From: Actinomycetota bacterium
Lineage (GTDB): Bacteria > Actinomycetota > Thermoleophilia > Gaiellales > Gaiellaceae
DNA length: 8,329 nt
NCBI GenBank assembly: GCA_013812465.1
Contig: JACCTK010000224.1
Location: 1-8,329, forward strand
Direction of reading: 5' to 3'
Under the pieces are notes generated by a model. That model was not told where the DNA came from and did no database searches. It saw only the letters and a list, made by a program, of their open reading frames with translations. Shown in pieces: positions 3,637 through 7,268 of the stretch (position 1 is the stretch's first letter; the number at the start of each line of letters is the position of its first letter). Made by a program: the position numbers and the translations under genes.

Positions 3637-3669
3637 ATGCGGTTGCGGCGGCGGATGCGGGCTTCTTGA
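3637..3669 (+). CDS. Possible 10-codon leader ORF (MRLRRRMRAS)
   Basis: An ATG placed exactly at the predicted transcription start opens a 10-residue, arginine-rich reading frame (MRLRRRMRAS). Its TGA stop at 3667-3669 overlaps the TTG start codon of the M2 peptidase as TTGA. This geometry suits termination-reinitiation coupling: the ribosome would load on a leaderless ATG and pass to the peptidase frame. Five arginines in ten residues is also notable. The peptide need not have a function of its own. The alternative is a chance ORF or a single-base sequencing error separating this ATG from the peptidase frame; I cannot distinguish these. Confidence 0.35.
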   Translation: MRLRRRMRAS

Positions 3670-5240
3670 CGGACGCCATCTCGCTTGCGCGCACCGCCGA
3701 GGAGACGTTCCGCCCGCTGACGTTGGCGAGCAACCTCGCCTGGTGGGACTCGAACGTCGATGCCACCGACGAGAACGCGCGCCGGCGCGCCGACGCCGAG
3801 CTCGCGTACTCGGACGCGCTCTCCGACCGGGAGCTCTACGGCGCCATCGAGGCGGCCCGAGGCAACGGAGCCGATCCTGTCCACGCGCGCGTGCTCGAGC
3901 TCTATTCGAGCGCGATGCTCCCGCACCAGATCTCGAGCTCGCTGCGAGAGCGGATCGTGGAGCTCGAGACGTCGGTCGAGACCCGCTTCTCCCGCCATCG
4001 GGGAGCCATGTCCGGCGAGCCGGTGGACGACAACCGGATCAAGCAGATCCTGCGAGAAAGCCAAGATCCAGAGGAGCGCCGGGAGGCGTGGGAGGCCTCG
4101 AAGACGGTCGGACGCGAGGTGGCGGACGATGTTCGTGAGCTCGCGCGAATGCGTAACGAGGCAGCGCGATCGCTTGGCTATCGAGACTGGTTCGCGCTCT
4201 CGTTGACCACGGACGAGATGGACGAGGACAAGCTCTTGGAGACACTCGCCGCCGCCGACCGCGCGACGGCCGAGCCATTCGCGCGCTGGAAGAGCTCTCT
4301 CGACATGCGGCTCGCCGAGCGCTTTGGCTGCTCCGTCTCCGACCTTCGCCCCTGGCACTATGCCGATCCGTTCTTCCAGGAGCCGCCGCCGGAAGGCGCG
4401 GTCGACCTCGACCCGCTGTTCAAGGGCAAGGACGTCGTCGCGCTCGCCCGGCGGACCTTCGAGGGCCTTGGGTTCGCGGTCGAGGGAATTGTCGACCGGA
4501 GCGACCTGTATCCGCGCGCCGGGAAGAACCAGCACGCGTTCTGCATCGACATCGATCGCGGCGGGGACGTGCGCGTTCTCGCCAACGTGGTCGACAATCA
4601 CAGCTGGACCGACACGATGCTCCACGAGCTCGGCCACGGCGTCTACGACCTCGGGTTCGACGACCAGCTGTCGTGGGTGTTGCGCGACACGCACCTCGTC
4701 ACGACCGAGGCGTCCGCGCTCCTGTTCGGCGCGCTCGCCGGCGACCGGGAGTGGCTCGAGCGCATCCTCGAGGTCGACGCGGGCGAGGCGGACGAGCTCG
4801 AAGGTCGGCTCCGTGCAGCTCGAGCCGCCGAGTTGCTCGTGTTCACGCGCTGGGTGCTCGTCATGAACGCGTTCGAGCGCGCTCTCTATGGCGATCCGGA
4901 GCGCGACCTGGACGGGGTCTGGTGGGAGCTCGTCGCGCGGCACCAGCTGCTGACGCCACCCGAAGGTCGAAGCGCGCCGGACTGGGCGGCCAAGATCCAT
5001 ATCGCCGTCGCGCCGGTCTACTACCACACCTATATCTACGGGGCGATCGTCGCGGCTCAGGTCAAAGATGCGTTGCGGAGCGCCGCCGGCGGTCTCGTCG
5101 ACCGTCCGGAAGCGGGAAAGCTGCTCGTGCGGAAGCTCTACGCCCCCGGCGCCTCGATTCGCTGGGACAAGCTGGTCGAGCAGGCTTCGGGGAAGCCGCT
5201 GTCGGTCGACTCGCTGGCGAGAGAAGTGGCAGCCGCGTAA
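3666..5240 (+). CDS. M2-family (ACE-like) zinc metallopeptidase
   Basis: 524 residues, gluzincin peptidase. The zinc site is H320-E321-L-G-H324 with the third ligand E348 in TTEAS, 24 residues after H324. This is the same spacing as in angiotensin-converting enzyme (HEMGH then Glu 24 later). Other ACE-like blocks are LAWWDSNVDATDEN (24-37), resembling the family's W-x-Y-N-T-N-I-T-x-E-N, and KIHIAVAP..YY..Y.Y (443-458), which corresponds to the ACE substrate-binding His and Tyr residues. No signal peptide or membrane segment is visible, so it is probably a cytosolic oligopeptidase or dipeptidyl carboxypeptidase. It is a single domain of ordinary length for bacterial M2/M3-type enzymes. The start is TTG: a stop at 3612-3614 closes the frame upstream, no ATG or GTG lies between, and the next ATG falls inside conserved sequence. 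Only 65 nt separate it from the Rieske start. The M2/M3 division of such bacterial proteins is sometimes blurred; M2 is favoured by the spacing. Confidence 0.93.
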   Translation: MTDAISLARTAEETFRPLTLASNLAWWDSNVDATDENARRRADAELAYSDALSDRELYGAIEAARGNGADPVHARVLELYSSAMLPHQISSSLRERIVELETSVETRFSRHRGAMSGEPVDDNRIKQILRESQDPEERREAWEASKTVGREVADDVRELARMRNEAARSLGYRDWFALSLTTDEMDEDKLLETLAAADRATAEPFARWKSSLDMRLAERFGCSVSDLRPWHYADPFFQEPPPEGAVDLDPLFKGKDVVALARRTFEGLGFAVEGIVDRSDLYPRAGKNQHAFCIDIDRGGDVRVLANVVDNHSWTDTMLHELGHGVYDLGFDDQLSWVLRDTHLVTTEASALLFGALAGDREWLERILEVDAGEADELEGRLRAARAAELLVFTRWVLVMNAFERALYGDPERDLDGVWWELVARHQLLTPPEGRSAPDWAAKIHIAVAPVYYHTYIYGAIVAAQVKDALRSAAGGLVDRPEAGKLLVRKLYAPGASIRWDKLVEQASGKPLSVDSLAREVAAA

Positions 5241-5276: not shown

Positions 5277-5669
5277 CTAGGGGAAGCGCTTCGGCCCTGG
5301 TCGATCGGGAACCAGGCGCCCCAGCTTCTCCCGATGCTCGGCGGCGAGCCGATAGGCGCTTTCGAGGATCGGGTCGGGAACGCGTGCGAGCACTCGCGCA
5401 GCGCGCCTTGTGAGCGCCATCGTCTCCAGAAGCCGCACCGCTCCGGCGCCGTACCCGACCACGGATCCGTTGGCGCGGGCGAGACGCCACGTGGCGAAGC
5501 GCTCGTCCTCCGAAAGGCCCGCGAGGAGCGTTCCAGCTTCAGGATCGGCGAAGGGAAGAATCGCGAGCTCCTGCTCGCGGTCGAGGCGGACGACGACACG
5601 CGCCGTCCAGCAGCAGAACCGTCACCCGCCGTCGTAGAGTAGAACCGGCCGGGCCAACTCGGGGCGCAT
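5277..5669 (-). CDS. Predicted DCC-family (DUF393) thiol-disulfide oxidoreductase selenoprotein, Sec16 by TGA
   Basis: 130 residues if the in-frame TGA at codon 16 is read as selenocysteine. The first part, ending VLLYDGG, then TGA, then RFCCW, matches the DCC-family N-terminus (LYDGDCxFC). D13-G-G-U16-R-F-C19 is the family's DxxCxxC motif with the first Cys replaced by TGA. The rest is also family-like in the same frame: ILPF near 37-40, SVVGYGAGAVRLL (69-81), and the usual end with ARVPDPILESAYRLAAEHR and LGRLVP. There is no other interruption, and codon use is equally GC-rich on both sides. Family members have a thioredoxin-like fold and are predicted thiol-disulfide oxidoreductases; a UxxC centre would be more nucleophilic. 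No signal peptide is seen, so it is cytosolic. The ATG at 5667-5669 directly follows the cupin's TAG, which blocks any upstream start and lacks a ribosome site, implying translational coupling. A recent pseudogene or a TGC/TGT-to-TGA sequencing error are the alternatives; the downstream hairpin argues against them. Confidence 0.82.
5588..5608 (-). promoter_or_regulatory. Candidate bacterial SECIS hairpin
   Basis: Read as mRNA on the minus strand, GGACGGCG (5608-5601) pairs with CGUCGUCC (5595-5588): eight consecutive pairs, one of them G-U, closing a 5-nt apical loop CGUGU (5600-5596). The loop starts 21 nt past the TGA and has G at its second position. Known bacterial SECIS elements lie just downstream of the Sec codon, inside the coding sequence, with a short apical loop carrying G in its first or second position, roughly 16-37 nt from the UGA; this hairpin meets all of these. 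SelB would bind the loop to deliver Sec-tRNA. GC-rich coding DNA can form stems by chance, so the support comes from position, loop and the TGA taken together. Confidence 0.7.
5622..5624 (-). other. In-frame TGA, predicted selenocysteine codon
   Basis: The + strand TCA reads TGA in the DCC-family frame, at residue 16, precisely at the position of the first redox cysteine of DxxCxxC. The following codons are CGG TTC TGC, giving U-R-F-C. The + strand has no other stop signal in this frame between the TAG at 5670-5672 and the TAG at 5277-5279. Confidence 0.8.
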
Positions 5670-6338
5670 CTAGGCGCTCGCGAGGTAGGCGGCGGCGGGG
5701 CTGCCGGCGGGGGTGAAGATGCCGATCACGGTCATCTCCCGATCGGGGCTCGAGTTCTCGACGATGTGGACTTCGCGGGGACGAAGCCGGAACGCCGCTC
5801 CCGCTGCGAGCGCCTCGTCGGAGTCGCGACGGTGGACCCGGCCCGGCCCCTCGGGAATCCACACGATCTCGTCGTAGAGGTGGTAGTGCCACGGCGCCCG
5901 CCCGGGCGGGAGGTAGCCCGCGAAGAGCGTCGCTCGCGTCGAGCCGTTGCGCGGCCCGAAGAGCACCCGAAAGGATCGCGCCCCCGTCGCCTGCGAGGCG
6001 CTCGCGTCGTCGACGTCGACGACGAGCTCGCGGGCGCCGAGAGGCGCATGGCGGTCGGCCTCCGGCCCGACGGTCGCCTGCAGGAGTGCCAGATCTGCGG
6101 AGTCTGGCGCGATCGTCACCGTCTCGCCGGCGAGGGCCAGCGCCGCGGAGCCTGTGCGCAGGCCGACGACATCGCCTTCCAGCGCAAGAGATCCCGCGCC
6201 CGCGATGACGTAGAGGAGGGAGTCGTGGTCCGGCTCGTGGATCTCGATCTTGCGCCCCTGGGCGCGAACGCCGGAGAGCGCGAGCGTCGAGCCGGCGATC
6301 GCAGGGACGAGCTCCTGGGTGTCGGCCGGCCGATCCAT
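5670..6338 (-). CDS. Bicupin-fold metal-binding protein
   Basis: 222 residues with two tandem cupin halves. The N-terminal half (about 28-75) has a cupin-like strand pattern but lacks the metal histidines. The C-terminal half (about 135-210) has the full first motif G146..H151-x-H153-x3-E157-x6-G164 and the second motif P188..H191-x3-N195, so it should bind one metal through H151, H153, E157 and H191. Cupins range from dioxygenases and isomerases to sugar or ureide enzymes, and I cannot assign a substrate. No signal peptide is visible. The ATG at 6336-6338 is chosen because the frame upstream has no nearby alternative start and a TACGGT -10 box lies 12 nt before it. Its TAG stop is followed directly by the ATG of the predicted selenoprotein, so the two form one transcript and probably act in the same process. 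It is divergent from the neutral metallopeptidase, with 48 nt between them. Confidence 0.9.
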   Translation of the reverse strand: MDRPADTQELVPAIAGSTLALSGVRAQGRKIEIHEPDHDSLLYVIAGAGSLALEGDVVGLRTGSAALALAGETVTIAPDSADLALLQATVGPEADRHAPLGARELVVDVDDASASQATGARSFRVLFGPRNGSTRATLFAGYLPPGRAPWHYHLYDEIVWIPEGPGRVHRRDSDEALAAGAAFRLRPREVHIVENSSPDREMTVIGIFTPAGSPAAAYLASA

Positions 6339-6344
6339 CCCAGT

Positions 6345-6386: not shown

Positions 6387-7268
6387 ATGCGGTTCCGGAA
6401 AGACGCGAAGCTCGATCGCTCGCAGGTCGACGACCAGCGTGGCCGTCGCGCAGGTGGCGCTCCGATGGCGCTCGGAGGTGGCGGAATCGTGACGCTGATC
6501 ATCATCGTCGCCATCGCACTCCTGGGCGGAAACCCGATCGACACGGGGGGTGGCGGCACTCCCTTCGACGATCTCGCCGGCCAGACCGCCGGCACGGGCC
6601 CGCCCTCCTCGACGCTCGAGCACTGCCAAACGGGACAGGATGCGAACGAGCATCAGGACTGCCGCATCCTCGCCGTCGTGAACAGCGTGCAGAAGCACTG
6701 GTCGACGGCGTTTCGCGGCTATGAGCCTGCTCGCACGACGTTCTTCACGGGCGGGGTCTCGACCGGTTGCGGCCAGGCGAGCTCGGCCGTGGGCCCGTTC
6801 TACTGCCCGGCTGACCGCAACGTGTACATCGACCTCGGGTTCTTCGAGCAGCTGCAGTCGCAGTTCGGCGCATCGGGTGGCGTGCTGGCCGAGGCGTACG
6901 TCCTCGCCCATGAGTACGGGCATCACATCCAGAACTTGACCGGCGTGCTTCGCAAGGCGCAGAGCCAGGACACCGGCCCGCAGTCGAACGCCGTGCGCGT
7001 CGAGCTGCAGGCCGACTGTTACGCCGGCGTCTGGGTCGCGAACGCGGTCCGCACCGGGCTGATCGTGGAGATCACCCGTAAGGACATCCAGGACGGCCTC
7101 TCCGCCGCCGCGGCTGTCGGCGACGACCGCATCCAGGAGAAGTCGCAGGGCAGCGTCAACCCCGAGGCCTGGACGCACGGCTCCGCCGAGCAGCGCCAGA
7201 GCTGGTTCGTCCGCGGGATCGAGGGCAAGAGCGCCAACTCCTGCGACACCTTCTCCGGACGCGTCTGA
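6387..7268 (+). CDS. Membrane-anchored neutral zinc metallopeptidase, KPN_02809/YpfJ family
   Basis: 293 residues. The N-terminal 30 residues are basic and cytoplasmic, followed by one membrane helix at about 33-47 (IVTLIIIVAIALLGG), then a glycine-rich linker (48-72) and an extracytoplasmic catalytic domain. The zincin motif is H175-E176-Y-G-H179-H180 and the third ligand is probably E207 in VELQADCYAG, the usual signature of this family (Pfam zinc metallopeptidase, YpfJ-like). Cysteines at 80, 92, 128, 140 and 286 suggest disulfides outside the cell. Family members are of unknown substrate. The ATG is supported by the start of the usual MRFR-type N-terminus and by the -10 box 13 nt upstream. 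It is divergent from the cupin gene and convergent, with a 13-nt gap, with the membrane-protein gene that follows. No hairpin fits in that gap; an inverted repeat TCGCGCG/CGCGCGA at 7292-7320, inside the neighbouring gene, is the nearest terminator-like structure. Confidence 0.94.
   Translation: MRFRKDAKLDRSQVDDQRGRRAGGAPMALGGGGIVTLIIIVAIALLGGNPIDTGGGGTPFDDLAGQTAGTGPPSSTLEHCQTGQDANEHQDCRILAVVNSVQKHWSTAFRGYEPARTTFFTGGVSTGCGQASSAVGPFYCPADRNVYIDLGFFEQLQSQFGASGGVLAEAYVLAHEYGHHIQNLTGVLRKAQSQDTGPQSNAVRVELQADCYAGVWVANAVRTGLIVEITRKDIQDGLSAAAAVGDDRIQEKSQGSVNPEAWTHGSAEQRQSWFVRGIEGKSANSCDTFSGRV

Follow-up and report, generated by a model that had tools for sequence, protein, structure and literature searches.

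The nearest described relatives of the gene analysed here are the DCC1-like proteins (DUF393, PF04134; YuxK) in their cysteine form, which carry a DxxCxxC site and are thiol-disulfide oxidoreductases by annotation, an activity best regarded as predicted; no functional study of DCC1-like proteins surfaced in the portion of the literature reached by a name-based search. The thioredoxin and glutaredoxin selenoproteins (PF00085, PF00462) have UxxC in common with the protein described here, together with a weak resemblance of fold of the thioredoxin, glutaredoxin or GST kind, but they belong to a different sequence family. The thiol:disulfide interchange and DsbA/DsbG-like groups (PF13098, PF01323, NF041057), listed as predicted UxxC selenoproteins in Table 1 of PMC13188914, are likewise built on other domain families, none of which our protein matches. 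That 2026 table, which covers 119 prokaryotic selenoprotein families and subfamilies, holds no PF04134 or DCC entry, the term 'DCC' does not occur in the accessible parts of PMC9312934, PMC12013277 and PMC2398784, and we found no paper on a Sec form of DUF393, DCC or COG3011 in a search that covered chiefly open-access journal papers.

Here we describe, in an 8,329-nucleotide stretch of actinobacterial DNA (the window, meaning the whole stretch that was analysed), a DCC1-like gene that shares with the Cys form its profile match, its active-site motif and the similar neighbourhoods of its orthologues, but that has a TGA in place of the first Cys and a hairpin-forming stretch behind it. We believe, with a probability of roughly 0.9, that this TGA, at codon 16, is read as selenocysteine (Sec), which would make the product a predicted UxxC thiol-disulfide oxidoreductase. 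Both the decoding and the catalysis are what we infer from sequence, and the best reading is a new UxxC selenoprotein family. As a system it is not of a new kind, but a new Sec form of a family already described.

The reading frame and its neighbourhood

The gene (5277..5669) runs on the minus strand from an ATG at 5669 to a TAG at 5279-5277 and spans 130 residues, with the predicted Sec at position 16. An earlier reading of this DNA, made from the sequence only, had proposed a single frame broken solely by TGA, and translation of 5669-5277 confirmed that the TGA at codon 16 (5624-5622, minus strand) is its one interruption. This codon lies at the first Cys of the DxxCxxC motif, which in the window reads D-G-G-U-R-F-C, and translation and alignment place a TGC codon for the presumed resolving Cys19 of the UxxC at 5613..5615 on the same strand. 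The assignment to the DCC family also stood: with Cys substituted for the TGA, the protein (P0001) matches PF04134 over residues 10-118 at 48.6 bits, against a gathering cut-off of 27.8 bits, and at E 0.001 it matches nothing else in Pfam and nothing in NCBIfam. So did the expectation that standard gene calling would leave a 61-codon remnant, since calling under table 11 yields, in the DCC frame, only a 61-residue product with a GTG start (5277-5462). Across the 12 TGA genes now in hand (see below), the second Cys of the motif is always retained, and the leading Asp gives way to another residue (Ala, Gly, Ser or Glu) in four of them, G005, G063, G081 and G474.

Directly upstream, on the same strand, lies a cupin-domain gene (5670..6344) whose TAG (5672-5670) abuts the DCC ATG, so that the two genes are probably co-translated; that the products are functionally linked is a guess from position. 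On the plus strand, convergent with the DCC gene, a frame at 3666-5240 encodes a peptidase-like product with matches to M2 (ACE-like) profiles as well as to M3 profiles. In the stretches of 3 to 12 kb fetched per genome for comparison, a cupin gene occurs near the DCC gene in six of ten TGA genomes (G001, G004, G052, G053, G054 and G056, in the last about 2.5 kb away) and in two of three genomes with a Cys orthologue (G003 and G051), and a peptidase or Rieske gene occurs near it in G001, G004, G052 and G054 as well as in G002, G003 and G051. None of the window neighbours tested was found in common around the DCC gene in G100, G005, G063 or G081. Because the TGA and Cys forms share neighbours, it appears that Sec and Cys take each other's place at a single locus.

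TGA and cysteine among the relatives

Within one order, 27 of the 129 genomes searched for homologues gave a match; of 399 genomes drawn from the class, 114 had a match at 1e-8, and of 396 drawn from the phylum, 31 had one at 1e-12. Thirteen of the class-level matches are close (E below 1e-28, the next-best match in that survey standing at 2.5e-27). Relatives with Cys and relatives with TGA at residue 16 had both been named as worth seeking, and both kinds exist: ten of the 13 close genomes, all ten from one order, have TGA at codon 16 (G001, G004, G005, G052, G053, G054, G056, G063, G081 and G100), and three have Cys, encoded by TGT or TGC (G002, G003 and G051). The phylum survey yielded one further TGA gene, in G474, whose product is 38% identical over 91 residues and is itself a PF04134 protein at 37.1 bits; this brings the count to 11 TGA genomes and, with the window, 12 TGA genes. 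No other stop was found in the frames of the TGA genes from residue 7 to the end. The N-terminal strand and the active-site region are conserved across the TGA, and when residues 7-130 are taken as one whole, both sides of the TGA together, each of the nine TGA pairs tested gives a dN/dS (NG86) of about 0.2-0.4, similar to the 0.38 of the single Cys pair tested.

Among 52 database protein relatives, 22 have Cys at residue 16, and 29, as judged from protein records only, start downstream of codon 16, which is what standard gene calling would leave of a TGA gene. The called lengths of these short relatives range from 73 to 113 residues; one of the 29 (P0039) has no start residue and may owe its short form to the end of a contig. 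Of ten relatives of the G474 protein, nine are likewise truncated and the tenth (P0054) has Cys. The remaining database relative, P0051, a metagenomic DCC1-like protein, has Tyr for the first Cys (LLYDAEYRLC); it is a single member, and an error is possible.

Alignment A1 holds 46 of the 53 proteins, and A3 (20 rows) and A5 (53 rows) were hand-picked. In a tree of 43 rows, from which the truncated proteins, P0024, P0050 and P0051 were left out, as were the Cys loci first found in the class and phylum surveys, at least three changes of state between Sec and Cys are required on the starred branches. Within it, the TGA gene of G054 is paired with the Cys protein P0002, and that of G474 with the Cys protein P0054.

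A SECIS-like hairpin behind the TGA

In the fold of the window, a SECIS-like hairpin (5588..5608, minus strand) begins 13 nt after the TGA, with an 8-bp stem formed by 5608-5601 and 5595-5588 and a 5-nt loop, CGUGU (5600-5596). That TGA-bearing relatives should carry a matching hairpin was borne out: six core pairs are possible in the same columns in 11 of the 12 TGA genes (10 of 11 before G474 was added), in none of the three Cys orthologues, and in none of the distant Cys loci, of which 27 were scored (25 distinct, two genomes having been counted twice; L045, L147 and L152 unscored). G056 has five core pairs and one U-U mismatch, and in G474 both stem and spacing are the same and the loop is AGGUU. 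In the alignment of the 12 sequences, 90.6% of 96 cells are paired and three pairs have changed on both sides; the covariation score was matched by only 4 of 500 shuffles, slid versions of the stem pair less, and two of the five covariation measures, pairs changed on both sides (63/500) and pair types (427/500), are not clearly above shuffles.

Loop guanosines mark bacterial SECIS elements according to the Fig. 7 legend of PMC2398784, and the window has such a hairpin just after the UGA with a G in its apical loop, a G that is present at column 26 in all 12 TGA genes. The Arg codon at the loop is CGT, CGG or AGG in all 12 and CGC in none, although CGC makes up 97 of 239 when the other Arg codons of the 14 close genes are counted.

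Taken by itself, the window hairpin has a folding energy that is unremarkable given its composition (z -0.22; 76 of 200 shuffles do as well), and with the protein held fixed and synonymous codons drawn at random, the chance that all six core pairs arise in a given gene is about 0.16-0.22 (for G056 it is 0), a figure that is if anything overstated, the codon pool having included the tested genes. The support that the hairpin lends thus comes from related genes conserving it jointly. When the first 40 nt are folded, the six core pairs are part of the best predicted structure in eight of 12 TGA genes and in none of the three Cys genes; when columns 13 to 45 are folded, that structure has six pairs in ten of the 12, five in G056 and none in G004, and again the stem in none of the three Cys genes. 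An alternative fold is preferred for G004 in all four stretches tried, and for G052, G100 and G056 in the three stretches beginning with the TGA. The case for Sec is built on the joint conservation of the stem and on the contrast between Sec and Cys genes, and not on the best fold in every TGA gene.

Codon 21 (window 5607-5609) is Trp TGG in nine of the 11 closer TGA genes and Phe TTC in the three close Cys orthologues. Since the GG of this codon adds lower-stem pairs, the needs of the RNA may have influenced the protein here. Trp stands at 21 in the Cys protein P0002 as well, which fits a recent change from Sec to Cys or plain chance.

Selenocysteine machinery and competing explanations

SelD was found in all ten order-level TGA genomes, SelA and, over the cut-off, SelB in the same six of the ten (G001, G004, G052, G053, G054 and G063), and tRNA-Sec(UCA), as called by ARAGORN, in four (G004, G052, G053 and G063). 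In G056, G100 and G005, where SelA, SelB over the cut-off and tRNA-Sec were looked for, SelD alone was found, which may reflect either gaps in the metagenome-assembled genomes (MAGs) or recent loss of Sec decoding; G081 falls short of a complete set too, with SelD and part of a SelB (133.7 bits) at the edge of a contig. SelA over the cut-off is present in 77 of the 129 genomes of the order, against six of ten TGA carriers, which is no enrichment, and so the presence of SelA in TGA MAGs does not by itself discriminate. Among the Cys genomes, G051 has all four components, G002 has only SelD of the four, and G003, a single contig, gave no SelA, SelB over the cut-off, SelD or true tRNA-Sec. The clearest case for Sec machinery beside a TGA gene is G474, in which one 1.06-Mb contig (C4) carries selB (329.1 bits), fdhD, selA (519.5 bits), tRNA-Sec(UCA) and the TGA gene, the last 2 kb beyond the tRNA-Sec and the whole set within about 20 kb (about 42.1-62.3 kb; L193/L194).

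Some hits in these searches call for care. The selA and selD of G063 (C1:1901018-1902291 and 2314639-2315411) each consist of two overlapping pieces in different frames, splits that look like assembly indels or real frameshifts, and within the order three tRNA-Ser(UGA) genes (L007, L166 and L167) exceed the Rfam tRNA-Sec cut-off as false positives (51.9-52.7 bits).

Consider, then, the possibility that the TGA is a real stop in a pseudogene, or a sequencing error. Such an account would accommodate both the TGA MAGs that lack a complete Sec system and the annotation of many database relatives as short proteins, but it would require the identical codon to be hit in 12 separate sequences, and it sits poorly with the selection measured over the entire frame, with frames that run from residue 7 to the end without a further stop, and with a stem that accompanies TGA and is absent with Cys; we regard it as very unlikely. 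The short forms called for 29 of the 52 database relatives could instead be taken at face value, as functional proteins without a UxxC that arise by a downstream restart and are regulated by the upstream short frame. Their called lengths vary widely, however, the N-terminal strand and active-site region are conserved across the TGA, and no stop breaks the frame of the Cys orthologues, all of which makes a restart scarcely credible.

It is also conceivable that the TGA is read as Trp or Cys, or by near-cognate read-through, with no Sec involved, and the four TGA MAGs without a complete Sec set would fit such decoding. Yet TGA terminates other genes (window 7266-7268, and the DCC genes of G005 and G063), the alternate residue at the site is Cys, the SECIS-like stem accompanies the TGA, and most TGA carriers have Sec machinery, so that we consider non-Sec decoding highly unlikely. 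Overall, decoding as Sec, the central proposal of the sequence-only reading, is supported by the same-codon TGA in relatives, the stem, the Cys orthologues and the Sec machinery in related genomes.

If the TGA is indeed read as Sec, the general course of events can be outlined. SelB with Sec-tRNA-Sec(UCA) would bind the hairpin that follows the UGA at a distance of 13 nt, the UGA would be read as Sec, and translation would continue to the TAG at 5277. In the structure model (pLDDT 89.9, from 53 sequences), a strand spans residues 9-12 and residue 16 sits just before a helix at 17-29; the structural matches of the model are weak and of the thioredoxin, glutaredoxin and GST type. In thioredoxin-like folds the attacking residue occupies the corresponding place just before the helix. 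From the model we infer that Sec16, placed where helix 1 of a thioredoxin/glutaredoxin-like fold begins, would be the nucleophile that attacks a disulfide or peroxide, and that Cys19 would be the residue that resolves the bond.

Beyond the single locus, we think it quite probable that the Sec-DCC proteins form a family with its own compact SECIS, spread over two or more diverged lineages of actinobacteria and marked by at least three swaps between Sec and Cys, and that most of its close database relatives are annotation-truncated selenoproteins, the family having been hidden because annotation truncates its genes. Standard gene calling is shown here to hide such genes. If this reading is true, the uncultured high-GC Actinomycetota would gain a further selenoprotein family, and it would provide a selenium handle, through 75Se or Sec-specific labelling, on the DCC1-like proteins. 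In this context, the natural pairs of Sec and Cys orthologues would serve for studying the reasons behind the switch from one residue to the other.
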